The notes under the pieces were generated by a model, which was not told where the DNA came from, did no database searches, and was given only the letters and a program-made list of their open reading frames with translations. From Craspedostauros australis (taxonomy: Eukaryota > Bacillariophyta > Bacillariophyceae > Mastogloiales > Achnanthaceae), in assembly GCA_026770025.1 (NCBI GenBank), contig JAMXDE010000038.1, positions 186,001-250,000 of the forward strand: a stretch of DNA of 64,000 bases, in the 5' to 3' direction. Both the position numbers and the translations under genes were made by a program. Below are positions 1-64,000 of this stretch, piece by piece (the first letter of the stretch is position 1; each line of letters starts with the position of its first letter).

Positions 1-2144
1 TTCGAGTATGAGGTGAGCAGGACATCACCAACTCTGTGCCGCAGCTCGGAGAGCTTGTCTTGAGGAACGAGCGACAGCGCAGCTTCCTGGACTTGATCAT
101 GGATGAAGGTGTATCGATACCCTTGCTTCCCATTGGCGTTGTTCGTGGGCTGCTGCTGAGTACCGATGCCCGTATCCTTCGTTCCAGACTTTCGGCGTTG
201 AGAGCTGCGATGCAGATGTTGCTCGATGAGGCCTTCTCTCTCACAGACATCCAGACTTCGTTGAATACCTTCGTACGAGATGAGGTGCGCCTGTTGCCGT
301 TGCAGCTCTTGTGACCGCTCCGATTGACGGAGGGATGAAGCACCATGCGACCGTTGTGATCCATCCGATCTCTGAGATGCATCCGATGACTGCGAAGATG
401 GCATCAGCACAGCATTCTCATCTGACGTCAACAGATCCTTGAAGAATACTCTGTGGTCAGAGTGGATGGACAGTGTCCGGATCGCAAGGATCAGCCTGCG
501 GTTCGAGAATGTGGATCCAAGGCATGCCGCGATCGGCAGCACGTGACGAGCAGCGTCCAGACGATCCAGCTTCTGCTTCATCAGATCAACCATATTGGCC
601 GTGGCGGATGACCCAGCCACGATCTTCTGCTCGTCCCAGATCCACTTCATCCCGTCGTCCTCATTCACGGACAGCAGCTTCTCGTACACCAACGACTCGA
701 GGAACTGCTTCATGAAGAAGATGTTGCCTCCAGTCTTGCGGTGCACAATGTCAGCAAGACCGTTCACGTCGCCGTCGTTGTCGGGCAGGAGGATCTCGAT
801 GAGAAGGTGGCGGACGCTCTGCAACGGTAGATCTTGGATCGGGATGTCAAGGACACGGATGGATCTCTCTCGCTTGCATTCTTGAAGAGCCATGATCATG
901 TCTTGAAGGTCTCGGCTTTGCTCAAGCTCGTTGGATCTGAAGCATCCGATGATCATCAGGGATGAGATCTCGCCATCCATTGCCCATGTCTGCATGATGT
1001 CGATCGATGCCTTGTCAGCCCATTGGATGTCGTCCATCATGATCACCAGCGGGCTGTGATTGCAGACGATCCGAAGGAATCGCTTGAGCGTGTGCTTGAT
1101 TCGATCGGACTTCGCTTTGTATCCTTCTGTGATTGTGGCTGTTGATGGTTGAGCGGATAGATCGAGTCCATGAACAGCCGATCCTGAGGTGGATGTGCTC
1201 GTGAACGAAGACTGTTTGGTCAGAGATTGTTCACGAATGCCACGCAATGATGTGCTCGCATCCCCATCGGCACTTGCGCTGACATCATCATCGCTAATTT
1301 CTTGGAGGTCGTGGTCCTTGTTCTGTCGATCTGCAATTGTATTGCTGGTGCTCTCGCCGACCATCATCTCAAGTAGACCTGGAATGATCTTGTACAGAGT
1401 CTTGAGCTCCTTCGACGACAGACGCCGAATCAACGATTGGTGCAATGTCGAGAATCTTCGCGGATCATCCACTGCCGCATCAGCCATACGAGTATCCTCC
1501 TGAGGCAATGCCATGATCTGCTCCACCAGCTGGTCCATCGCGTTCTTGATGCCCGCGTACGGTTCCTCCATCTGCTGGAGATCGAACTTGCCAGAAATGA
1601 AGAAGGCGAAGTTGTCGAGGCAGTGCTGCTTGTAGTGCATTGCGAGTGCGGACTTGCCGCTTCCTGATGGTCCCGAGATGAAGCATACTGTCTTGAGACT
1701 TGTGCGATGGCGCTGCCCGCGACGTTGTTGTTTGTGATGCATCTCATCTTCACTGTTGTGTTTGGAGGTGAAGCTTTGACTGCTGGTGCTGCTACTGGTG
1801 GTGGTGATGCTGGTGCTATCCAGACTTCGCGTGCCTTGGGTGGCTCGCTTTCTGTCAAGCATCTGGTTGATGGCATTGGACAGCACCCGCTTCTCCTTGT
1901 CCCGCCCAACGATTCCAGCGCGGTCGAACTTCAAAGAAGAGCTTTGCTGCTGGGCATCGGAGAGCCCGCTGCTGGTGAGCGAGTCTGTGTCTGACATGTT
2001 GGTCGATGGATCGTTGAGGCTCTTCGTGCTGCTCGTCCTGTTCTTGTGCAGCATGTTGGACCGGGGTGTGTCGGCCAGCCGCACGCGAGATGATGTCGTT
2101 GTTGTCATTGTTGTCGTTGTCGTCATCGTTGGCGTTGATGTCAT
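1..2144 (-). CDS. STAND/AAA_16 ATPase, copy A (3' end beyond the window)
   Basis: The minus strand is open for 714 codons from an ATG at 2144 to the left edge, so only the N-terminal part of the protein is seen. It has a Thr/Ser-rich start, an AAA_16-type P-loop (GPSGSGKSA), a Walker B segment (LVIMMDDIQWAD) followed by GCFRSNE, and a winged-helix-like stretch. This is the layout of large STAND ATPases (COG3899 type), which in known members act as signal-gated switches ahead of helical repeats. It is nearly the same as the gene at 45653-49597, on the opposite strand. The start is the only ATG after an in-frame TGA and corresponds to the MSTPTM start region of the other copy. The N-terminus is about 11 residues longer because of Thr-rich expansion. 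No stop interrupts it here, so it may be functional. Function in diatoms is unknown. Confidence 0.85.
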   Translation of the reverse strand, partial: MTSTPTMTTTTTMTTTTSSRVRLADTPRSNMLHKNRTSSTKSLNDPSTNMSDTDSLTSSGLSDAQQQSSSLKFDRAGIVGRDKEKRVLSNAINQMLDRKRATQGTRSLDSTSITTTSSSTSSQSFTSKHNSEDEMHHKQQRRGQRHRTSLKTVCFISGPSGSGKSALAMHYKQHCLDNFAFFISGKFDLQQMEEPYAGIKNAMDQLVEQIMALPQEDTRMADAAVDDPRRFSTLHQSLIRRLSSKELKTLYKIIPGLLEMMVGESTSNTIADRQNKDHDLQEISDDDVSASADGDASTSLRGIREQSLTKQSSFTSTSTSGSAVHGLDLSAQPSTATITEGYKAKSDRIKHTLKRFLRIVCNHSPLVIMMDDIQWADKASIDIMQTWAMDGEISSLMIIGCFRSNELEQSRDLQDMIMALQECKRERSIRVLDIPIQDLPLQSVRHLLIEILLPDNDGDVNGLADIVHRKTGGNIFFMKQFLESLVYEKLLSVNEDDGMKWIWDEQKIVAGSSATANMVDLMKQKLDRLDAARHVLPIAACLGSTFSNRRLILAIRTLSIHSDHRVFFKDLLTSDENAVLMPSSQSSDASQRSDGSQRSHGASSLRQSERSQELQRQQAHLISYEGIQRSLDVCEREGLIEQHLHRSSQRRKSGTKDTGIGTQQQPTNNANGKQGYRYTFIHDQVQEAALSLVPQDKLSELRHRVGDVLLTSYS

Positions 2145-13340: not shown

Positions 13341-13560
13341 TTCAATGAAAGTAATGATGATTCAATGAAAGTAATCACGATTCAATGAAAGTAATAACGT
13401 TTCAATGAAAGTAATAACGTTTCAATGAAAGTAATAGCGTTTCAATGAAAGTAATAGCGTTTCAATGAAAGTAATCACGATTCAATGAAAGTAATAGCGT
13501 TTCAATGAAAGTAATGACGTTCCAATGACAGTGATGACGTTCCAATGAAAGTAATGTCGC
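13341..13560. repeat. 20-bp minisatellite array, 11 units
   Basis: Eleven head-to-tail units of exactly 20 bases follow the pattern TTCAATGAAAGTAATnnCGn. The first 15 bases are nearly invariant and the last five vary. TTCAATGAA is a palindrome around its central base. The last two units are the most degraded. Confidence 0.95.
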
Positions 13561-14145
13561 ACCAAGATCCAACGACAAAAATCATGGCTCACAGGTTCCC
13601 AACAAGACTAAATCTAGTCGTATCAAGTTCAGGCTGGATTCGCGCTGATTCCAAACAACGCGAATTTGGCGCTCGTCAACAAACAACTCACCGAGATGCC
13701 AACATCCCGAAGAGAAAAGAACCAAGAAGAGCAATCAAGGAATCGACCACCCTTTCGACCTCCCAACGATTCAACAGAGGAACAGTCAAACAAGGAAAGC
13801 AGGGAACCAGGCAGCTAACAACACCAGCAAGCAACAATTGGCAACAACGGAGGAAGGACAAAAAGAAGGCAAAATGATGACAACGATACCAACAGATGTC
13901 CTGTTAATAATATAATAGGTATCTGTAAGCCTACCTTGGCTGTTTCTGACAAATCCTTGACTGAGTTGGTGAGTATTTGTTGAATTGCCTTGGACAATAC
14001 TCGTGCATTGCACGCTTACATTGTGATTTGTGTTCGTGTGATCAACACGTGCGTGAAGCCTGGAACGAGACACGAATGGCTCTGTGTGACGGAAATCGAA
14101 TACATGGACTGCAACGATCGCTCAATGGAAGTGTCACAATGACGT

Positions 14146-14300
14146 TTCAATGAAAGTAATCACGATTCAATGAAAGTAATCACGATTCAATGAAAGTAAT
14201 CATGATTCAATGAAAGTAATAACGTTTCAATGAAAGTAATAGTGTTTCAATGAAAGTAATAACGTTTCAATGAAAGTAATAGCGTTTCAATGAAAGCAAT
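14146..14300. repeat. 20-bp minisatellite array, 8 units, same unit and orientation
   Basis: Eight units of the same 20-base repeat, in the same orientation as 13341-13560, preceded by a degenerate copy from 14121. The two arrays are 585 bases apart. Confidence 0.95.
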
Positions 14301-14896
14301 ACAATCGATGTTAACGCTTATAACGTCTACTTAACGCTTTATTCACCGTCTTCCATTGCTCAGCGGTTGACTCGATGGAGCCCACAGATGCGACAAATCG
14401 AACATGTCTGTTCGGAGCAGTCTGTACGTCGTCCAGACCCACTTTCATCGTTTTTCCCGTGTCTTGCAGCTCCTCCGTTCTGCTATTCTCCTTGCTGATC
14501 AAGAACAAGCATGTCTAAGGTAAGTATGGGTGTTGTTGTCGCGTCGCTCGCACACGACGGAGGTGATCGGATCGGTGGCTGCGATTTACCTCACAACCGT
14601 AATTTCGACAATGCTCAACAACATCCAGAAGACTCGCCAAAGCTTGCGTCCTCGGGAGAAGGACAGACGTGCACAAACATCGCATTCTTGGATACCAACC
14701 ACACAAAAGCAGCGAACGCAAAGATACCAACGCTCTGCCCGTGTTCTGCCCACACAACAACGCACCTGCAAATACGATGTCCATCGACCCCATCACAACA
14801 GGAACGGACACCGAGAATCAAGCTGGATGCTCTAGATCGTGCCTCAACCCACGAGTGCTCATCCACCATCCTAGTAGGACTACACCAAGGAAGACA

Positions 14897-45652: not shown

Positions 45653-47769
45653 ATGCTCATGATGTCAACCCCAACGATGACAACAGCGCCCCCGATGGAC
45701 ACACCCCGGTCCAACATGCTGCACAAGAACAGGACGAGCAGCACGAAGAGCCTCAACGATCCATCGACCAACATGTCAGACACAGACTCCCTCACCGACA
45801 GTGGACTCTCCGATGCCCAGCTGCAAAGCTCTTCTTTGAAGTTCGACCGTGCTGGAATCGTTGGGCGGGACAAGGAGAAACGGGTGCTGTCCAATGCCAT
45901 CAATCAGATGCTCAACAGCAAGCAAGCCACTCAAGGTACGCGAAGTCTGGATAGCACCAGCATCACCACCAGCAGTAGCAGCACCAGCAGTCAAAGCTTC
46001 ACCTCCAACCACAACAGTGAAGATGAGATGCATCACAAACAACAACGTCGCGGGCAGCGCCATCGCACAAGTCTCAAGACAGTATGCTTCATCTCGGGAC
46101 CATCAGGAAGCGGCAAGTCCGCACTCGCCATGCACTACAAGCAGCACTGCCTCGACAACTTCGCCTTCTTCATTTCTGGCAAGTTCGATCTTCAGCAGAT
46201 GGAGGAACCGTACGCGGGCATCAAGAACGCGATGGGCCAGCTGGTGGAGCAGATCATGGCATTGCCTCAGGAGGATACTCGTATGGCTGATGCGGCAGTG
46301 GATGATCCGCGAAGATTCTCGACATTGCACCAATCGTTGATTCGGTGCCTGTCGTCGAGGGAGCTCAAGACTCTGTACAAGATCATTCCAGGTCTACTTG
46401 AGATGATGGTCGGCGAAGGCGCCAGCAATACAATTGAAGATCGACAGAACAAGGACCACGACCTCCAAGAAATTAGCGATGATGATGTCAGCGCACATGC
46501 CGATGAAGATGCGAGCACATCATTGCGTGGCATTCGTGAGCAATCTCTGACCAAACAGTCTTCGTTCACGAGCGCTTCCACCTCAGGATCGGCTGCTCAT
46601 GGACTCGATCCATCCACTCAATCAGCATCAGTCGCAGTCACGGAAGGATACAGAGCGAAGTCCGATCGAATCAAGCACACACTCAAGCGATTCCTTCGGA
46701 TCGTCTGCAATCACAGCCCGCTGGTGATCATGATGGACGACATCCAATGGGCTGACAAGGCATCGATCGACATCATGCAGACATGGGCGATGGATGGCGA
46801 CATCTCATCCCTGATGATCATCGGATGCTTCAGATCCAACGAGCTCGAGCAAAGCCAAGACCTTCAAGACATGATCACGGCTCTTCAAGAATGCAAACGA
46901 GAGAGATCCATCCGTGTCCTTGACATCCCAATCCAAGATCTACCGTTGCAGAGCGTCCGCCACCTTCTCATCGAGATCCTCCTGCCCAACAATGACGATG
47001 ACGTGAACGGTCTTGCTGACATTGTGCACCGCAAGACTGGAGGCAACATCTTCTTCATGAAGCAGTTCCTCGAGTCGTTGGTGTACGAGAAGCTGCTGTC
47101 CGTGGATGAGGACGGCGGGATGAAGTGGATCTGGGACGAGCAGAAGATCGTGGCTGGGTCATCAGCCACGGCCAATATGGTTGATCTGATGAAGCGGAAG
47201 CTGGATCGTCTGGACGCTGCTCGTCACGTGCTACCGATCGCGGCATGCCTTGGATCCACATTCTCGAACCGCAGGCTGATCCTTGCGATCCGGACACTGT
47301 CCATCCACTCTGACCACAGAGTGTTCTTCAAGGATCTGTTGACGTCAGATGAGAATGCTGCGCTGATGCCATCTTCACAGTCATCAGATGCATCTCAGAG
47401 ATCGGATGGATCACAACGGTCGCATGGTGCTTCATCCCTCCGTCAATCGGAGCGGTCACAAGAGCTGCAATGGCAACAGGCGCACCTCATCTCGTACGAA
47501 GGTATTCAACGAAGTCTGGATGTCTGTGAGAGAGAAGGCCTCATCGAGCAACATCTGCATCGCAGCTCTCAATGCCGAAAGTCTGGAAGGAAGGATACGG
47601 CCATAGGTGCTCAGCAGCAGCCCACGAACAACGCCAACGGAAAGCAAGGGTATCGATACACCTTCATCCACGATCAAGTCCAGGAAGCTGCGCTGTCGCT
47701 CGTTCCTCAAGACAAGCTCTCCGAGCTGCGGCACAGAGTTGGTGATGTCCTGCTCACCTCATACTCAAA
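45585..47769 (+). repeat. Inverted duplication, arm B (partner 1-2247)
   Basis: Plus-strand copy of the sequence at 1-2247 read on the minus strand. The match begins near AAGATCACCAACTGAAACCGG, upstream of the start codon, and is still strong where arm A meets the window edge, so the true arm is longer. Indels are mainly in the Thr-rich start. Confidence 0.9.
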
Positions 47770-49597
47770 GGGTGAGATGCGAGAGGACAAGGTCCACATG
47801 ATCGCTGGCCTCATCAATGCCAGGCTCGATCTCGTGCCTGCCACTGCTCAGCACTCCGATCGTCGCATGAGGATCGCCATGCTCAACTCCAAGGCAGGTC
47901 AGCTCGCTGTCGAATGCGCTGCATTCCAAGCTGCGGCAGAGTATTTCCGGACAGCAATGGCACTGTTGCCAGCTGATCATTGGAAGACCCATCTCCATCA
48001 GAGCATCGACATCTTTTCATCAGCCGCCGAATGCGCGTACATCAATGTAAACAGTGATGAGGTGCAACGATACTGCTCGAGCGTGTTGTCATTGGATTGC
48101 TCCATCCTTGACAAGATCCGGGCGTATCGTATCTTCATCGACAACTTGTTCATCGAATCCAACGAAACCAGAACAAAGAAGACGCTCCCAACAATCCTGT
48201 CTGTGTTAGGCCAACTTGGATGCAGGTTCCCCACAAGCAAGCTGGGCAGGAACTTCAAGTTGATACGTGGTCTCCTGAAGGTGAAACTGACAGCATCGAA
48301 ATGGACTGTGGAGTCCTTCCGAAGCAAGCCATTGTGCGCGGATCCAACGCAAGTGGCTGTGATGGAGCTGCTGGACCAATTGGTTACCATTGCGTACTTC
48401 GTTCTCCCGGAATTGCTTCTTTTGGTCATCCTTGAATGTGTGGAGAGGACTTTGAAGCACGGCATCCTCCCACATTCCTCAACTTCGTTCGCTTACCTTG
48501 CTTTCGTCTCCGGTTACGTAATGGGAGATTTCAAAACCGCGGAAACGATTGGCGAGATTGCCATGCAGATGACTGAACAAGAATCCAACCGGATCTGCAA
48601 AGCCAAAGTCATTTACAATCTAAGTATTGGCATGACACACTGGATAAAGCTGACGAAGGCCACGTTGCCACACCTATGGAGAGCCCACGAGCTTAGCATG
48701 GCAAACGGCGATGTCAATACGGCCCTTCGAAGTGTTGCCGATCATTTGCAAAACAGATTCTTCACGGGTGAACCGCTGGCCCAACTTGACAAAGATATGC
48801 GAAGGTGTTTGCATTCCATGAACGATGTGCCACACCTCGAGCACAAGGACTTCCTCAACATGAGTTGGCAGGCCATTCGCAATCTCCGAGGTCTCTCCAA
48901 CAACGAAACGAAGCTGAAGGGAGACATCTTTGATGAAGATGCCTTCTTTGCGCAGCCAACAGAACAGATTGACCACGCCGCAGCGATTGTACTCGCCGCA
49001 TACCGACAAATCCTTGCTGTGTTCTTCGGCGACTTTGAGCTCGGAGCAGTCACTTCGCTTAGATCCTTTGACGAATTCATAAAGAAGTTCCCAGGAATGA
49101 GCTGTCTTTCACTTGGCGCAACTTACGGCAGCATCTGCTGTTATGCCGCTAGCTACGCGACCTCCAGCAAATCGAAAGCAGCCACATACCGCAAGCAAGG
49201 AGACCGCTGCCGCAAGCAGCTCCGCAAGTGGGCCGACATGGGCAACCCAAACTGCCAACATAGCTACGCGTTGGTGCAAGCAGAACACAAGATGCTGCGA
49301 TCCAAGTTTGACTCTGCCGTCGTGAAGTTCAAGGATGCGATCGATCTCGCCACGAGCTGCGGCTTCACGAACGATCAAGCGCTGGCGAATGAGCGCCTTT
49401 CGGAGTGCTTGACAAGGATGGGGATGGACGATGCGGCCGATCAGGCAATGGAAGAAGCCATTCGGCTGTATGGAGAATGGGGTGCAATGAGGAAGGTGGA
49501 GAAACTGAGATTGATGCATGAGGGGGACGAAGAAAGAACAGGCGAGCGAAATGAATTGATGCCTTGGGGATGGGCAAACAGCGCTGAGAACGAATAG
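45653..49597 (+). CDS. STAND/AAA_16 ATPase with helical C-terminal half, copy B
   Basis: A single exon encodes 1314 residues. After a disordered Ser/Thr-rich N-terminus comes IVGRDKEKRVLSNAINQML, the typical entry to an AAA_16 domain. Then follow Walker A GPSGSGKSA (about 149), Walker B LVIMMDDIQWAD (about 356) and GCFRSNE. A winged-helix region and RYTFIHDQVQEAALSLVP (about 665) are the hallmarks of COG3899-type predicted ATPases. From about 740 to 1300 the protein is all helical with TPR-like units. Bacterial relatives usually carry a kinase, cyclase or histidine-kinase module; none is visible here, so any output may be through partner proteins. Gln/Ser-rich insertions (SSQSSDASQRSDGSQRS) separate domains. 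Copy A at the left edge is its near twin. The start at 45653 is followed by further Met codons at 45659 and 45662 that could also serve. Confidence 0.88.
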   Translation: MLMMSTPTMTTAPPMDTPRSNMLHKNRTSSTKSLNDPSTNMSDTDSLTDSGLSDAQLQSSSLKFDRAGIVGRDKEKRVLSNAINQMLNSKQATQGTRSLDSTSITTSSSSTSSQSFTSNHNSEDEMHHKQQRRGQRHRTSLKTVCFISGPSGSGKSALAMHYKQHCLDNFAFFISGKFDLQQMEEPYAGIKNAMGQLVEQIMALPQEDTRMADAAVDDPRRFSTLHQSLIRCLSSRELKTLYKIIPGLLEMMVGEGASNTIEDRQNKDHDLQEISDDDVSAHADEDASTSLRGIREQSLTKQSSFTSASTSGSAAHGLDPSTQSASVAVTEGYRAKSDRIKHTLKRFLRIVCNHSPLVIMMDDIQWADKASIDIMQTWAMDGDISSLMIIGCFRSNELEQSQDLQDMITALQECKRERSIRVLDIPIQDLPLQSVRHLLIEILLPNNDDDVNGLADIVHRKTGGNIFFMKQFLESLVYEKLLSVDEDGGMKWIWDEQKIVAGSSATANMVDLMKRKLDRLDAARHVLPIAACLGSTFSNRRLILAIRTLSIHSDHRVFFKDLLTSDENAALMPSSQSSDASQRSDGSQRSHGASSLRQSERSQELQWQQAHLISYEGIQRSLDVCEREGLIEQHLHRSSQCRKSGRKDTAIGAQQQPTNNANGKQGYRYTFIHDQVQEAALSLVPQDKLSELRHRVGDVLLTSYSKGEMREDKVHMIAGLINARLDLVPATAQHSDRRMRIAMLNSKAGQLAVECAAFQAAAEYFRTAMALLPADHWKTHLHQSIDIFSSAAECAYINVNSDEVQRYCSSVLSLDCSILDKIRAYRIFIDNLFIESNETRTKKTLPTILSVLGQLGCRFPTSKLGRNFKLIRGLLKVKLTASKWTVESFRSKPLCADPTQVAVMELLDQLVTIAYFVLPELLLLVILECVERTLKHGILPHSSTSFAYLAFVSGYVMGDFKTAETIGEIAMQMTEQESNRICKAKVIYNLSIGMTHWIKLTKATLPHLWRAHELSMANGDVNTALRSVADHLQNRFFTGEPLAQLDKDMRRCLHSMNDVPHLEHKDFLNMSWQAIRNLRGLSNNETKLKGDIFDEDAFFAQPTEQIDHAAAIVLAAYRQILAVFFGDFELGAVTSLRSFDEFIKKFPGMSCLSLGATYGSICCYAASYATSSKSKAATYRKQGDRCRKQLRKWADMGNPNCQHSYALVQAEHKMLRSKFDSAVVKFKDAIDLATSCGFTNDQALANERLSECLTRMGMDDAADQAMEEAIRLYGEWGAMRKVEKLRLMHEGDEERTGERNELMPWGWANSAENE

Positions 49598-55779: not shown

Positions 55780-56025
55780 TGGTTATGAGCCTGGTCTTAC
55801 GCTGAAGTCAAGATTCGACAGAGAGCCTCATCAATAGCGCAAGAACCGATCCCACGAAGTCTCAGACTTCCTCATCCAACTAAGTCGCTGCCACAGCGAC
55901 CCGCATCCGTGGCTTGGACCCTGTGAGCTTCACTGCAGGAAGCAAGAGTCAAGCCGCCCACTGACAGTCCAGCTGTCCGAACGCCAGCAACGCAGTTGCT
56001 CCGACAATAATCAGCCGATCATCTG

Positions 56026-56153
56026 CTGATCTACCCGCAGCAGCGCAGCTGACTGCTTGCAACACAGTTGCTCCTGCCACAGGCACCCACTGATCTACCC
56101 GCAGCAGTGCAGCTGACTGCCCGCAACACAGTTGCCTCACTCCCAGACACCTG
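56026..56153 (+). repeat. 64-bp direct repeat in the copia leader
   Basis: Two units, each starting CTGATCTACCCGCAGCAG and ending near CAACACAGTTGC, begin at 56026 and 56090. Further partial CGCAACNCAGTTGC motifs follow to about 56190. Confidence 0.8.
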
Positions 56154-56288
56154 CTGACTGAAGCTCAGCAATCACAACTCGCAACGCAGTTGCGACCATC
56201 GATCGATACTCCAGCAGAACATCTGCGAACCAGCAGCTCAGCTGCTCATCAGAAAATCCGCAACCTCTTCAAGCGCAGCTTTTGAAGG

Positions 56289-59200
56289 ATGGCGGATGAT
56301 CAACCGGAGGCCACCGTCACCCAAGGTGGAGCCACCACAACTCAAGCCGAGGTAGCTGCCACTCAAGCAGCAACCTTGGAACAACTCAGCCAGATGCAGG
56401 CCCGCCTTCTGGCCCAGCAACAACAACTGAACGAAGCGAGCCAAGTCCTTCAAGAACGACTCGCGAATCTGACTGAGAGGGAGGAAGCCCACGAGCGTCT
56501 CCTTCAAACCGAGGTATCTGGTGTCAACACCTCCCAGGAAATCTTCGAACTGGGCCGCACCGCAGCCGAGACGGAACGTGAACTCGCCAATCGCCCAACC
56601 AAGCCGGTGATGGGCAACATCGTCAAGGTGGGAAAGAACTGGTTCCCCTTCACCGGGGGAAAGCCCAAAGCTGACTGGTCTGGGCTTGTTGACGAGCCCA
56701 ACACCTACCTCTACGTTCTCCAGAAGCGCTCCACTGCAAGCGGAGCCGATGTCAAGAGCCAACCCGACATGGAGAAGGGCCTTGAACCCAAGTTCCACCG
56801 CCAGAGCGATCTCCAAGCCTTCCAGCGCGACTTCATGTCCGAACTCAAAGCCAGAGGGCTCGACACCATCTCCTACCTCAAGGAGCCATCCGACCCCGAA
56901 GACACGACCAGCGTCGTTGCCCATCCATACCGCTTCAACCAAAAGACCATCATGGAAGAAGCAACCGAAATGGCAAGCCATTTTGATGAGTACGACCGCC
57001 GCAACAACATCACTGCCTGCCGCTTTCTCCTCAACTCTCTCCAGCCAAGCCTGAAGGACGACATCTTGGCGCGGGTCCATCCGGATCAACGCGAGGATTT
57101 TGTCATTCTTTGGATGGAGCTGATCGAGGACTTGCGAACCACCACTTTCGACAAGTATGATCGCATCAAGCAGAACATCCGCCGTCGCACTCCCAAGACC
57201 TATGCCGGTGAGAACATCAAGAAGTTTGCTGATGACACCCGCAAGGACGCCCAAGTTCTCGAAGATGCTGGCCAATATGACCACGCCCTCACTGCGGACA
57301 TCCTCACCAAGTTTCTCTCTGCTGGCGGCTCTGGCACATCCGGGGAGCGCTACCGCTTTGGTCTCCACAGCAAACTCGGCAACCTCAAGGAAGTGCTGAT
57401 CCAAATCGGGTGCTGCACCAAGGCCGAGAAGGACCGACGCATCTTGAAGGATCGCCTTCACTGGCGTGATGTCTGCAATCTTGCCACCGACCTGTACAAG
57501 CAAGAGCTCCATGCTGGACAATGGCATGCTGCCTCCTACTTGCGCAATCGCAAGAACAGCAACGCTGGGTATTTCCTCTCTGGAGAAAATGGAGGCATCG
57601 AGATCGACGAAAGCACGGCGCTGGCCCTGATGCAGAATGGTGGAAAGACGCCCATCATCTGCCACAACTGCGGAGAACCTGGTCATGTCAAGGCCAACTG
57701 CCCCAATCTGAAGAAAGGTGCAGGCTCCAACCACAGCAGCAAGGGCAAGAAGGGTTCCAACAACGCGAAGAAGGGTTCTTCCAACACCAGTTGGCGTTCT
57801 GTTCCCCCTTCCAAGGGTGAACCGCACCAGAAGGTTGTCAGGAGCTCCACTTTCAAGTGGTGTGCCAAGTGCAAGCGTTGGCTCACCTCCCATGGCACCA
57901 GCGAGCACAGAAGCGACTTCAAGGACAAGAACAAGAACAAGAGCGAGACCGCTGCCAACACAGTCACATTCGATTCCACCGAATGGCACGTCTACAAGGT
58001 GACGGAAGAAAGTCCATCTGGGTGGTTCCAAATCATCCAGGCCTACCTTGGTCCATTGGCTCTCCTCATTGGTGCCTTTCCTCTTTTCATTCCGCTGCTC
58101 ATCCAGGTCCTCATCTTTGCAATCATGCATGGGTGGGAGACAGCCTCGATTGCAGCATGGATGGTCACTGCAACATACCTGGCACGCAAGCACCATGACA
58201 TGCCTCGCCACCCTGATGGTCCAGTTCCCAAGCCTCGTTGGCAACGCCGCTGCGAAGCCTATTGGGAAAAGAAAGGTCGCCGTCGTGACCGAGCCCAACC
58301 CAAGGATTGGATCAACTTTCATCGTCGTGCTCCGATTCGTCTCCGCCACCACCGCTCTCGCTTCGACCCTCCAGTATCTGCAATGCATGCATCAACCAAC
58401 ATGCATCCCAGAGCAAGAGCAGCTGGGTTGAGGCGACGCAGTCATCGTGTGATCGGTCTTGAGAACAACCCGAACAAGCACAGATTCAGAAGCACGGCTT
58501 TCTCCAACCCACGGCCAAGAGCCAATTCCATCAGCCATGGTGCCAGGTTCGGAACCAGAGCCGTTCCTATTCGTCGACATGAAGTGCAAGGACCATCCAA
58601 GAAGAAACATCGCAATCAGCGTCAGCGAATGATGGTATTTGATGCTCCTGCTCCTGCTCAGCGACAGCGACTCACCGAGAAACAAACCAGCAGACTGGCC
58701 CAGATCCTCAGCACCTACTTCAAGCCTGAGGACGCGCCTCCGTCAAATTCTGTGTGCACACACGATGGACCATCCTCTATCACGAGTTTCTCGGCTGTCC
58801 GTCACAGCTCAGACGAGCTCGCCAACGTCCTTCCAGCCAAGATGATATGTGATGTCATTTGGGACAGCGGATCCACCGTCTGTATCTCACATGACAAGTC
58901 CGACTTCGTCTCCGAACCCAGAAGGCCAATTGGAAACCAAGCCAAGAAACTGACAGGGCTGTTTGGAGGACGATCTGACCACTTGGTGGGAACCGTGGAA
59001 TGGGGCATCCAAGACACGAGAGGAAACATTCGCCGTCTCAAATTCCCGGCATACTATGTGCCAAGAAGCAACGCCAAGATCATCAGCACCTCTGTGTTCG
59101 AAAGAATGTATCCAGGCGAGCTGCAGTATGTGAATGGCAGGTGGAAGGTCCAAGGAAGAGAGGGAGAGATCAACATCAAGATCAATCCCAAGAACAAGCT

Positions 59201-60627
59201 TCCAACTTCCAAGGCATACAACATGAAGTCATTGACCGAGCACATTCCACATGCCCTCAATGCAACCATCACTACTGTTTCCTCCGCCAACCGCAACCTG
59301 TCCGAACCACAGAAGGAGCTGCTGCGTTGGCACCAACGCCTGGGCCACAATGACATGCGGAAGATCCAGCACCTTTTTCGTTCGGGAACCCTGGCGCACA
59401 CCGAAGCCGCACGCAAGCTACAAGCAAGCGCCTCCCGCCTCGCCACACTTCCAAAGTGCGCAGCATGCCAGTTTGGGAAACAAGTCTGTCGCTCAAGCCC
59501 GGGCCATCTGCACCGACCAGTACGTGATCGAGAGGGAGCCATCAAGTTCGGTAATCTTCGGCCTGGCCAACTCGTCTCTGTGGATCATTTTGAAGGGGGT
59601 GGAAAGGGACGACTCTTCTCGGGATATGGAAAAGGGAGCGATGACGAAATGTACGGAGCCGGCATCGTATTCGTCGACCATGCTTCAGGATTCATCTTCG
59701 CTGAGCCAGTCCTGTCTACATCTTCTCAAGACATGATCAGAGCAAAGGAGAAGTTCGAGAGCATGTGTCGAGATCTCGGCATTGTTGTCCAACAATACCA
59801 AAGCGACAATGGAAGGGCATTCACCTCATCAGACTATGCTGACCACCTTCGACACTTCCATCAATCCCATCGATATGCAGGACGCGGAGCGCATCACCAC
59901 AACGGCATCGCCGAACGAAGCATTCGTACCGTGGTGTCAAGCGCTCGAACCATGATGCTCCATGCCACTCTGCACTGGCCCGAACTGGACGTCGTGCCAC
60001 TCTGGCCCATGGCAATTCGTCATTCCGCATTCATCTTCAATCGGCTGCCAAACCTCGCGAACGGCCTCTCTCCCTTCGACATCCTTGCCCGAATTCGCTT
60101 CCCACAGAAGCATTTCCACAACCTACACGTCTGGGGATGCCCCACTTATGTGCTGGATCACAGAGTTGGAGATGGGAAGAAGATTCCAAAATGGAAGGCC
60201 CGGAGCGATCGTTTTGTGCACGTCGGCCTCTCCGAGAAGCACTCCTCTACCGTCCCACTGGTTCTGAATCTCAAGACTGGAAGCATCACACCTCAATTTC
60301 ATGTGGTGTTTGACGACTGGTTTGCCACAGTGCCTTCGGATCCATCCAACCTTCCCAACTATAACTCGGATCAATGGAGGAATCTGTTTGGAGATACCGA
60401 GTACAAGTTCCCTTTTGATGAAGAAGATTTGGAACGCCTCGAGCAGCAGGATCAGGAAACAGAGGAGCAGGACAGCCATGACCAGGATCTGAATCGCCAA
60501 CTCGCAGAGCAAGCAAATGCGGATCATCGACCATCAGAGCCGCTTCCTGTGGAACTTGGACCGGAGCTCCCACCATCACCATCAGATACTGCACCAGTGC
60601 CGGATGAAGTCTCTGCACCACCAACAG
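56289..60627 (+). CDS. Copia gag, protease and integrase region
   Basis: Gag-like helical region first, then a CCHC knuckle (CHNCGEPGHVKANC, about residue 457). A second Cys/His finger (CAKCKRW then HGTSEH) follows. Next is an unusual hydrophobic stretch at about residues 578-635, then an Arg-rich segment. The retropepsin-like site is at DSGSTVCISHD. The GAG-pre-integrase motif is LRWHQRLGHNDM with CAACQFG, and the integrase core includes QSDNGRAFTSS and HHHNGIAERSIRT. A Glu/Gln/Asp-rich spacer leads to the insertion point. This is a fossil or young mobile-element gene, not a host gene. The start at 56289 is the first ATG after the leader repeats. Confidence 0.9.
60623..60627. repeat. Target site duplication, left copy (AACAG)
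   Basis: AACAG directly precedes the left terminal repeat and recurs at 61291-61295 directly after the right one. A 5-bp duplication is typical of integrase-mediated insertion. Confidence 0.85.
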
Positions 60628-60833
60628 TATTAGAGCACTATCGAAAAATCACAAGGGGAGAGCAAAAGCAAAGTACCATGCCGGGATTCGAACCCGGAAC
60701 CTCAGTTAGAATTACTGGTGCTCTACCGTTGAGCTACAGGCGATGCGATTGCTGATCCGAACACAAGTGAAATTTATAGATAGTGGGGGCTACGGGAGTA
60801 ACGTACTTAGCGCTATTCAGTTTTGTGCTGATA
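60628..60833. repeat. Left terminal direct repeat of the nested element
   Basis: 206 bases, identical by eye to 61085-61290. Confidence 0.9.
60674..60743 (-). ncRNA. tRNA-like sequence with A and B boxes, left repeat
   Basis: Read on the minus strand: A box TAGCTCAACGG (60736-60726), a four-pair D stem (GCTC/GAGC), a short anticodon-like stem, B box GGTTCGAATCC (60694-60684) in a perfect five-pair T stem (CCGGG/CCCGG). T runs (TTTT and TTTTT) 10 to 40 bases further could end Pol III transcripts. The acceptor stem pairs poorly (about 4 of 7) and T33 is missing, so it is tRNA-derived or tRNA-like rather than a working tRNA gene. Confidence 0.65.
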
Positions 60834-61084
60834 CTCCCCTACGCTACGACCGTGGACCACCTGCTCAAGAGCACTATGACGGAAAGTTGTCATCTCCCGC
60901 GTCTCCCCATCTCGGGGCACCCTCATTGCTGGGTGGCTAATACTGCCAGACGAAAGTGGGAGTGCTGCCGTAGCAGACAAGTGTGAGACTGGGTCGAAAT
61001 CCGGTGATCGCAACGCGCCCACGAAGGCGTGTTGTGCAAGGTTGTCCTAACTCAGCGATGTAGAACTAGCTGCGACTGTTAATC
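60834..61084. other. Internal segment of the nested element, noncoding
   Basis: 251 bases with no ORF of note. GGGTCGAAATCCGG at 60991-61004 resembles a B box. Several GC-rich short inverted repeats suggest a folded RNA, but no known RNA family is recognised. Confidence 0.5.
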
Positions 61085-61290
61085 TATTAGAGCACTATCG
61101 AAAAATCACAAGGGGAGAGCAAAAGCAAAGTACCATGCCGGGATTCGAACCCGGAACCTCAGTTAGAATTACTGGTGCTCTACCGTTGAGCTACAGGCGA
61201 TGCGATTGCTGATCCGAACACAAGTGAAATTTATAGATAGTGGGGGCTACGGGAGTAACGTACTTAGCGCTATTCAGTTTTGTGCTGATA
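61085..61290. repeat. Right terminal direct repeat of the nested element
   Basis: 206 bases, identical by eye to 60628-60833. Confidence 0.9.
61131..61200 (-). ncRNA. tRNA-like sequence with A and B boxes, right repeat
   Basis: Same sequence as 60674-60743, offset by 457 bases, including the A box, B box and downstream T runs on the minus strand. Confidence 0.65.
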
Positions 61291-61295
61291 AACAG
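61291..61295. repeat. Target site duplication, right copy (AACAG)
   Basis: Matches 60623-60627; copia sequence resumes here. Confidence 0.85.
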
Positions 61296-64000
61296 CTCAA
61301 CCAACAAGTGCTGCAACTGATGCACCAAGAGAAGGCCAGAACAATATGGAGAAGGCCAACTTGCGAGACTCAGTCCCACCATCGCGCAGGGAGGCTGCTC
61401 ATGACGACAAGGGTGACGACAACGACAACATACCACTCCCATCTGACGATCAGGACACCATGGACCATGACAGACCCAGCGTGGAGACACCTGATGCTAG
61501 CTCAGCGAAGGCTCAGCCAGAAACATCTCCAATTGCATCGAACCCAGCACCTCAACAGAGGGAGCGTCGCAGACGAAATCGACAGCAGCAACCAGTCCGT
61601 CGATCGGCACGGATTGAAGCAAGACGATCCAACCCCAGAAAGAGAGCTCCTCCACAACGCCTTGAATACAGCCAGATGGGTGGCATGGCTCAGGCCTTCG
61701 TCTGCCAACCAATTCACCAGACCTCACCATCCATTGATGCTGTGACGGCCGCCCACTTGTCAAGCTCGATTCTCTCAGCGATTGAACTCCTGAAAGGAGC
61801 CAATGGAAGCAACAGCCCAATCACTGAACCACTGCACAGCATTGAGGAAGCAGCAATCCACATGACAACTTCCATGTCCGAGCTTGAAAAACTCAAACAG
61901 GACTCCTGTGGACGTATCAATCCACACATCGCACAAGTGGACAGCAATGCCAGAGCCCGCTTGACTGCCGCTGAAGAAGCTGCCTGCGATATGATCAGGA
62001 CTGCACTCTCCACTTTGGCTCTCTACGACTCGCCGGACAACCACTTTCGCTGGCAGATCGCAGACATGTCTGAAACCATCTACGCAGTACATGGTCGCTT
62101 GCTGCAGCAAGACTGGAGCGACAATGATGATATCGATGAAGGAGGAGATCGAATCATGGTGCACATGGCTGTACAAGACGATGGGAGAGATCCAGACAGG
62201 AGAGACGACCAACAGGAAGAGGAGTTCGCTCTGCCTCAGGACTTGCAAAATGAGATCGATCAACTCGCAAATCTCCTCACCGCGCTTCACATCATTGAGC
62301 ACTACGGACTTGACGCATACTCAACCAACTTCGACTTTGATGAGCTCAGAGACTGGTGGACTCAGGTAGCTGCAGGCCACAATATAGATCCTCCGGAAGG
62401 GCTGCCTCGAGTCTCTCCCAATGGCGAAGAGAACTCCCAATCCAATGCCTCCAGGTCCAGTGACAACCCCGACAGCAACATGCCCGATTCCGCTGAACAA
62501 GACACCAGCGACCATGATCCAGATGACGTTGAGCAATGCCTGTGGATCGACTCCATCCCGCAGCTCGCAGATCCATCCATGACCGCCTGCGACACCAACG
62601 GAGCAGAGGAATATGCGTTTCTGACGATGAATGAGGACGGCGAATCCGACCCATCTGGCAGATCCATCTCAGGATCCGAAGCCGTCTTCCTGATGTCTAA
62701 CGGCCACCTGGAGCTGAGCGAGGGACCGAGCAGCTTCAAAGCATCACCAACAGACCCCGACACCCTTTCCTTTGATGAAGCTATGAAGGACGAAGACAGA
62801 GAGAAATGGATGGAAGCAGCCAAGAAAGAAGTCACAGACTTGGTCTCCAAGGGCACATGGGTCGAGGTCAGCAAGGCCGAAGCAGTTGGCAAGATTGCAC
62901 CGGGTACCTGGGTGTTCCGTCGCAAGCGCCGACCTGACGGATCCATCAAGAAGCACAAGGCCAGGTTCTGCGTTCGAGGCGACCTTGTGGACGAAACGGA
63001 ATCCACTCTTGCTCCTGTGGTCGCTTGGCCGTCGGTCCGCGTCTTCCTAATCACCGCAATTCTCCTTGGATGGGTCACTGTGTCAATCGACTTTGTGAGC
63101 GCCTTCGTCCAAGCCGCCATCCATCGAGACATCTACATCCACCTACCTCGGGGCTTTCGGTCAACCAACGGACCCAATGTATGTCTCAAGCTCCGAAAGA
63201 GCCTATATGGCTTGACAGTGGCCCCTCGGCTCTGGCATGAGCACCTACTGCGAGCACTAACAGCTGAAGGGTTCAAGGCCAGCGAGCAGGACCCCTGTCT
63301 GTTCTTGCGCCCTGGGATGATGCTGGCACTATATGTGGACGACGCAGGCATTGCAGCACCACACGAGAAGGACATCGACGATTTCATCCAGTCAATGACC
63401 AGACGCGGCTTCGAGCTGACCAAGGAAGGAACGTTCAACGAGTTCCTTGGAGTCAAACTGGATAAGAACCGCGACGGATCGATCCACATGTCTCAGCAAG
63501 GACTGATCGATAAGATCATCGCGGCAACTGGAATGGAAGCGTGCAACCCAAACTGGATTCCTGCTACCAAAGCAGCTCTTGGTAGTGATCCGGATGGAGA
63601 AGCGATGAAGGAATCTTGGAACTATCGGTCTATCATCGGTATGCTGCTGTACTTGGCAACCAACACAAGGCCAGACATTGCGTTTGCTGTGTCCCAAGCA
63701 GCACGCTTCAGCCACTCTCCCAAGCAATCCCACGCCAGGGCGCTTAAGACCATCGTGCGGTACCTTGCGCGAACCAAGGCACAAGGCACCATCATCCGGC
63801 CATCTGGCAAGCTGGACCTGCAATGCTACGTCGATGCTGATTTTGCTGGGCTACATCATCGAGAGCCCGACGATAATCCTACATCAGTCAAGTCGCGTAC
63901 TGGATACATCATTATCCTTGGAGGATGTCCTCTAATCTGGCGGTCCAAGCTGCAGACCGAGATAGCTCTCTCTACAACTGAGGCCGAATATGCTGCGCTA
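61296..64000 (+). CDS. Copia reverse transcriptase and RNase H region, runs off the window
   Basis: After an acidic linker of several hundred codons the copia reverse transcriptase is clear. Motifs are EKWMEAAKKEV, GTWVFRRKRRPDG, the DFVSAFVQA and IYIHLPRGF blocks, and the catalytic YVDDAG near 63333. The connection region (SIIGMLLYLATNTRPDIAF) and RNase H start (CYVDADFAG, SRTGYIIILGG, STTEAEYAAL) follow to the edge. The remainder and the 3' LTR lie outside the window. Confidence 0.9.

Follow-up and report, generated by a model that had tools for sequence, protein, structure and literature searches.

Mini-elements whose LTRs hold tRNA-derived sequence have already been described: TRIMs of this kind are named Helenus and are grouped as TRIMp3 (Kojima 2024, PMC10886601). 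According to the available text of that paper, Helenus elements have total lengths of 311-1263 bp, their LTRs are not well conserved in sequence, and boxes A and B are conserved within a tRNA that is itself usually non-functional; a functional Pol III promoter is called unproven there. Fungal Helenus elements show 5-bp duplications and mostly an anticodon-loop primer-binding site (PBS), Copia helpers are argued for them, and tRNA-Asn-GTT appears among the Helenus primers, chosen once (PMC10886601, same portion). The hosts given are fungi, six animal phyla and Selaginella, and the words "diatom", "stramenopile" and "oomycete" have no mention in the available text. Besides this paper, the accessible part of one meeting report mentions Helenus.

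Priming by half a tRNA is documented, in the available portions of the papers concerned, for Drosophila copia and Ty5 (cited in PMC10886601) and among plant elements for Osser, Bryco, part of Gymco-II and Bianca (PMC6317226). SINEs are described as ending in a LINE-type tail (PMC10886601, available text). For the haptophyte alga Tisochrysis lutea, the accessible text of PMC5963040 gives 240 potential TRIM sequences, which were not hand-checked. The terms "tRNA", "TRIM" and "non-autonomous" have no mention in the accessible part of a diatom retrotransposon paper (PMC2806351), and the corresponding part of a Diplonema paper (PMC10161547) merely mentions TRIMs and SINEs with rRNA pieces.

Here we describe a mini-element within a window of 64,000 nucleotides, by which we mean the whole stretch of DNA that was analysed. 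From its sequence, we consider it probable (roughly 0.88) that a TRIM of the Helenus/TRIMp3 type, oriented on the minus strand, has recently entered a Ty1/copia element here. The features on which this reading draws are as follows.

60628 to 61290, sense strand minus: whole mini-element, 663 bp, oriented by its PBS, polypurine tract and tRNA-like body
61085 to 61290, minus: 5′ LTR, 206 bp, TATCAGCAC...GTGCTCTAATA
61230 to 61235, minus: TATAAA of the 5′ LTR (LTR 56-61); second copy at 60773-60778
61128 to 61200, minus: tRNA-like body of the 5′ LTR (LTR 91-163); Rfam RF00005, 35.4 bits at 61136-61195
61183 to 61193, minus: A box TAGCTCAACGG of the 5′ LTR; second copy at 60726-60736
61141 to 61151, minus: B box GGTTCGAATCC of the 5′ LTR; second copy at 60684-60694
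61121 to 61124 and 60664 to 60667, minus: T4 run
61101 to 61105, minus: T5 run of the 5′ LTR, candidate Pol III terminator; second copy at 60644-60648
61071 to 61084, minus: primer-binding site GATTAACAGTCGCA, adjoining the 5′ LTR and complementary to tRNA-Asn(GUU) nt 27-40
60834 to 60840, minus: polypurine tract AGGGGAG, immediately before the 3′ LTR
60628 to 60833, minus: 3′ LTR, 206 bp, identical to the 5′ LTR
60671 to 60743, minus: tRNA-like body of the 3′ LTR; Rfam RF00005, 35.4 bits at 60679-60738
60623 to 60627: target site duplication AACAG, left copy
61291 to 61295: target site duplication AACAG, right copy
55781 to 55794, plus: PBS-like GGTTATGAGCCTGG of the interrupted copia element, complementary to tRNA-Met(CAU) nt 27-40
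56289 to 60627, plus: Ty1/copia gag-pol frame up to the point of interruption, with zinc knuckle, gag_pre-integrs and integrase
61296 to 64000, plus: continuation of this gag-pol frame beyond the mini-element, with RVT_2; free of stops from 61298 up to the end of the window

The original prediction, made from the letters of this DNA, had proposed a TRIM-like element whose LTRs contain tRNA-like Pol III boxes, built from two identical 206-bp direct repeats, a 251-bp noncoding core and a 5-bp target duplication, with ends other than TG/CA, and this anatomy was borne out throughout. The two LTRs are 100% identical over their 206 nt, with a start-to-start spacing of 457, and enclose a core at 60834-61084 in which the longest stop-to-stop stretch in six frames is 71 codons (77 codons in the whole element). 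The element thus falls below 1000 bp, has two LTRs and is without coding capacity for mobility proteins, as is expected of a TRIM, and its duplication of exactly 5 bp (AACAG), the sole match among lengths of 3 to 11 tested, lies within the 4-6 bp of TRIMs. Each LTR runs 5′-TA...TA-3′ rather than TG...CA, and its termini form short imperfect inverted repeats (TATCAG-CAC vs TATTAGAGCAC). A blastn search of the 64-kb window returned no third copy of the element, LTR or core. The 10-mer ATAGTGCTCT, near the LTR 3′ end in the sense direction, is found again once in the core (60868-60877, element sense position 414).

A further claim, that no primer-binding site was visible, proved wrong, the site being on the minus strand at 61071-61084. 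Read on that strand, the core opens with GATTAACAGTCGCA right after one LTR and closes with GTAGGGGAG right before the other. The 14-nt PBS is complementary to TGCGACTGTTAATC, which makes up nucleotides 27-40 of tRNA-Asn(GUU): the anticodon stem on its 5′ side, the loop CUGUUAA, and two bases from the 3′ side of the stem. The core holds two 7-purine runs in the sense direction and none in antisense; one of the two is the AGGGGAG at the 3′ LTR edge and the other lies inside the core at sense position 177. The PBS and polypurine tract expected of a TRIM are therefore both present, the tract being only 7 nt long and the PBS having been matched to tRNA-Asn genes of viral contigs.

We checked the PBS by extending the anticodon arm to 17 nt by the stem-pairing rule and searching the result, TGCGACTGTTAATCGCA, in IMG/VR. 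This arm is present in 18 contigs (14 distinct 67-nt contexts), in 16 of which it lies within a tRNA-Asn(GTT) gene called by ARAGORN, with no tRNA called in the other two. As a window control, 879 tRNAs from the fetched viral contigs were reduced to 529 distinct 14-mers of nt 27-40. Exact matches to these on both strands of the window numbered two, the PBS of the element and the PBS-like site of the copia element, a control that is partly circular and tests location rather than discovery, because it was with these two arms that the source contigs of the tRNAs had been retrieved. Allowing one mismatch gave 11 window sites, 9 of them elsewhere. From these matches we infer that the element uses a half-tRNA primer of tRNA-Asn, the comparison tRNAs being viral-contig genes and not those of the host; a matching host nuclear tRNA-Asn(GUU) would carry UGCGACUGUUAAUC at nt 27-40.

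Two other ideas about priming were tried and rejected. For a longer copy of the tRNA-Asn 5′ half upstream of the PBS, the best score was reached by 21.7% of 1000 shuffles and by 19.2% of 2000 other window pieces, and the mean score by 7.9% and 5.2%, respectively. For self-priming by the tRNA-like RNA of the LTR itself, the best match of the primer segment was 8/14, which 89% of 500 shuffles reached.

The left flank of the element is a 1488-aa Ty1/copia gag-pol frame beginning at 56289, with domain matches to a zinc knuckle, gag-pre-integrase, integrase and an SH3-like domain, of which the integrase and SH3 scores are below the Pfam cut-offs. If the 663 bp and the 5-bp duplication together form a 668-bp insertion, the next full copia codon is predicted at 61298. 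Over 901 codons the frame so predicted contains 0 stops, while the other two frames contain 24 and 44; RVT_2 (E 3.1e-36) lies in the predicted frame. Because the LTRs are identical and the interrupted copia frame is still open, we regard the insertion as recent. The copia element has a PBS-like site of its own at 55781-55794, upstream of its ORF and at the position expected of that element's PBS; the corresponding 17-nt tRNA-Met arm, completed by stem pairing, occurs at least 120 times, and 116 of the 120 sites taken fall within a called tRNA-Met(CAT). The interrupted copia element therefore probably uses a tRNA-Met half, and two unrelated elements in the window would seem to share one half-tRNA register. 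A peptide pattern for the copia reverse transcriptase matched 2 viral_contigs and 23 genome_contigs stretches, from collections that are viral and prokaryotic, and no relative was confirmed among them. The copia element is otherwise open within the window (55781-64000), with its 3′ LTR beyond the window end, and a 64-bp unit stands in two copies (56026-56151) between its PBS-like site and the gag start.

Elsewhere in the window, a match to a YihA/YsxC GTPase (TIGR03598, 171.7 bits) is found downstream of a frame whose hydrophobic leader closes with VAAFSS. We take this ending to resemble a plastid signal of the ASAFAP type; leader and GTPase are in separate frames. A eukaryotic-type SRP54 match scores just under its cut-off. 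The left end of the window (1-2072) is a reversed repeat of about the first half of an AAA_16 ATPase frame at 45653-49597, being an inverted near-copy of 45698-47769 (2,072 bp, 96.3% identical), and a 20-bp unit, TTCAATGAAAGTAATAACGT, forms two separate tandem arrays (13341-13555 and 14138-14301) about 580 bp apart.

The tRNA-like body foreseen in the original prediction scores 35.4 bits against the Rfam tRNA family (RF00005) in both LTRs, above the gathering cutoff of 29 and with an E of 0.0011 in a 64-kb search, over model positions 6-65 of 71. The body does lie on the minus strand; its description as antisense did not hold, since minus is the sense strand of the element and the body is therefore sense to it. 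The consensus A and B boxes and downstream T runs predicted for each repeat were also found, with each B box starting 42 nt downstream of an A box and a T4 and a T5 run following the B box inside each LTR. Exact B boxes (GGTTCGANTCC) occur only twice on either strand of the window, both times in the LTRs. Both box types are intact in this one copy of the element, as judged by comparison with the consensus alone.

As a tRNA, the body is degraded. Its acceptor stem keeps 4 of 7 pairs, ARAGORN called no tRNA gene in the window, and the folded RNA shows no extra stability over shuffled sequences (z -0.05), 95 of the 200 shuffles equalling or exceeding it. No clear parent isotype emerged among 818 distinct tRNAs, which came from the fetched viral contigs and are not nuclear algal genes, so that this result is weak. 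Plant tRNA genes have TATA and CAA upstream; here TATAAA sits 35 nt upstream of tRNA-like nt 1, being two of the four TATAAA on both strands of the window, and CAA is at -8. We found no report on upstream motifs of diatom tRNA genes in the open-licence PubMed Central literature. Beyond the T5 of the 5′ LTR, the next stretch of at least four T is the T4 of the 3′ LTR.

Pol III transcription from the LTR, which we infer from these signals, would begin with recruitment of RNA polymerase III by the A and B boxes of the 5′ LTR, perhaps aided by TATAAA at -35, and would start near LTR 80-90. A full-length RNA of ~560 nt would arise if Pol III continues through the T4/T5 runs in the 5′ LTR and terminates at the T5 in the 3′ LTR, giving a layout of U3 ~85 nt, R ~105 nt (about LTR 85 to 190) and U5 16 nt. 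Much of the Pol III would be expected to terminate at these 5′ LTR runs, short of the core, which is a difficulty for the Pol III model. A 3′-truncated tRNA-Asn would then pair with the 14-nt PBS and prime reverse transcription, a Copia-type reverse transcriptase being supplied in trans; AGGGGAG would prime the second strand, and integration by a Copia-type integrase would create a 5-bp duplication. Since the interrupted element is itself probably primed by half a tRNA-Met, the helper probably belongs to a different copia family. In Phaeodactylum, according to the accessible part of PMC4247016, small RNAs corresponding to D loop and anticodon regions have been observed for 9 tRNAs, along with one putative half tRNA; such fragments therefore exist in a diatom, and "Asn" has no mention in that part. 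Searches for relatives with an LTR pattern gave 0 matches in viral_contigs and 0 in genome_contigs, which are viral and prokaryotic collections, and a second LTR pattern gave 0 in the viral collection; in collections of this kind such misses carry little weight.

The element could instead be a TRIM driven by Pol II, with the TATAAA in U3 as its promoter and the tRNA-like stretch as a captured passenger, such as an old SINE or tRNA fragment. The rarity of TATAAA in the window, the decay of the acceptor stem and the T4/T5 runs after the B box of the 5′ LTR, which would halt Pol III early, all speak for this view. However, the A and B boxes have remained intact and normally spaced despite the decayed stem, which is the pattern expected if only the promoter boxes are kept, and the published Helenus elements show the same conservation of boxes in the available text of PMC10886601; we consider Pol II transcription unlikely, though more probable than the other alternatives. 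Nor do we find support for a new element class, neither TRIM nor SINE and moved by some other mechanism, for which the original prediction had seen room. The TA...TA ends in place of TG...CA and the tRNA-like LTRs might suggest one. However, LTRs, 5-bp duplication, PBS and polypurine tract are all present, and TG/CA is the one common LTR feature that is missing. TATA is among the LTR_retriever end motifs as quoted in PMC8220671, and 3 of 26 LTR families in a diatom study are without TG/CA (PMC2806351), each according to the available text. With TRIMs bearing tRNA-derived LTRs already described as Helenus in 2024 (PMC10886601, in its accessible part), this candidate was rejected on the PBS, the polypurine tract and that description, and we consider it very improbable.

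The locus also offers a single repeat pair with no third copy in the window, as would be expected had a segment with a tRNA pseudogene merely been duplicated in tandem at this site. Such an event, which had been named as the alternative to a mobile element, does not account for the 5-bp target duplication, for a PBS and a purine tract at the exact core edges, or for the interruption of an open copia frame. Because no frame but the one that a 668-bp insertion predicts remains open, we conclude that this is a mobile insertion and regard local duplication, which the frame test contradicts, as extremely improbable. A retrozyme-like element with a self-cleaving ribozyme in its LTRs would likewise be short, non-coding and repeat-flanked; however, the 6 Rfam matches at 60400-61500 with E values up to 5 include neither a hammerhead nor any other ribozyme family, and the chance that the element belongs there is close to nil. 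We therefore retain a Helenus-type TRIM as the preferred reading.

The idea of a TRIM with tRNA-derived LTRs is already known, and it is the host group that may be new. The host is likely to be an alga, and a diatom is plausible: the GTPase match, the leader and the SRP54 match noted above are indirect signs of a plastid-bearing stramenopile. No tRNA-LTR TRIM from a diatom or stramenopile was found by title or abstract among the matches listed in open-licence PubMed Central, and the letters of the tRNA arm, used as a literature query, had no match there. If an algal host is right, this would be the first such element found outside fungi, animals and plants, within the open-licence PubMed Central literature. 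The fuller proposal, a Helenus-type TRIM in a stramenopile alga whose LTR is a putative complete Pol III unit with its own terminator setting the R/U5 boundary, we put forward tentatively, at a little under even odds. If it is true, Pol III promoter capture by LTR elements arose again in an unrelated lineage or is far older. Each LTR, even a solo one, would then yield a short RNA of ~105 nt, and a template for retrotransposition would form only by readthrough of the terminator. The element would extend tRNA-LTR mini-retrotransposons to a probably new branch of eukaryotes. As a clean recent copy, with identical LTRs, an exact insertion site, PBS and polypurine tract, it is a good test of Pol III use by Helenus, and it is a caution for genome annotation, where a tRNA-like hit in such a genome may turn out to be an LTR.

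Among known systems, Cassandra is likewise a TRIM with a promoter derived from a Pol III gene in its LTRs; the Cassandra LTRs carry 5S rRNA, whereas those of the present element carry a tRNA, and no 5S family was detected at the Rfam gathering threshold in the window or up to E 5 in 60400-61500. With Ty1/copia elements primed by half tRNAs it shares a PBS that immediately follows the LTR and complements the anticodon arm; unlike them, as they appear in the available texts, it is without coding capacity and would use a tRNA-Asn half rather than tRNA-Met or tRNA-Ile. The tRNA-derived SINEs (SINE2) also have tRNA-like Pol III promoter boxes, whereas here the boxes stand inside LTRs, accompanied by PBS, polypurine tract and a 5-bp duplication. 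The TRIMs of Tisochrysis lutea resemble it as short non-coding LTR elements in a microalga; tRNA-like LTRs are not described for them in the accessible part of PMC5963040, where "tRNA" has no mention. From Helenus, as covered by the available text, the element differs in its host group, and the likeness is one of anatomy, not of sequence compared with Repbase Helenus. The tRNA-derived sequence inside TRIM LTRs that defines Helenus is present in both LTRs at 35.4 bits against RF00005. Like Helenus, the element is short (663 bp), has two such LTRs with PBS and polypurine tract at the core edges, and combines intact A and B boxes with a non-functional tRNA; with most fungal Helenus elements it further shares the 5-bp duplication and a PBS for the anticodon loop of a 3′-truncated tRNA.
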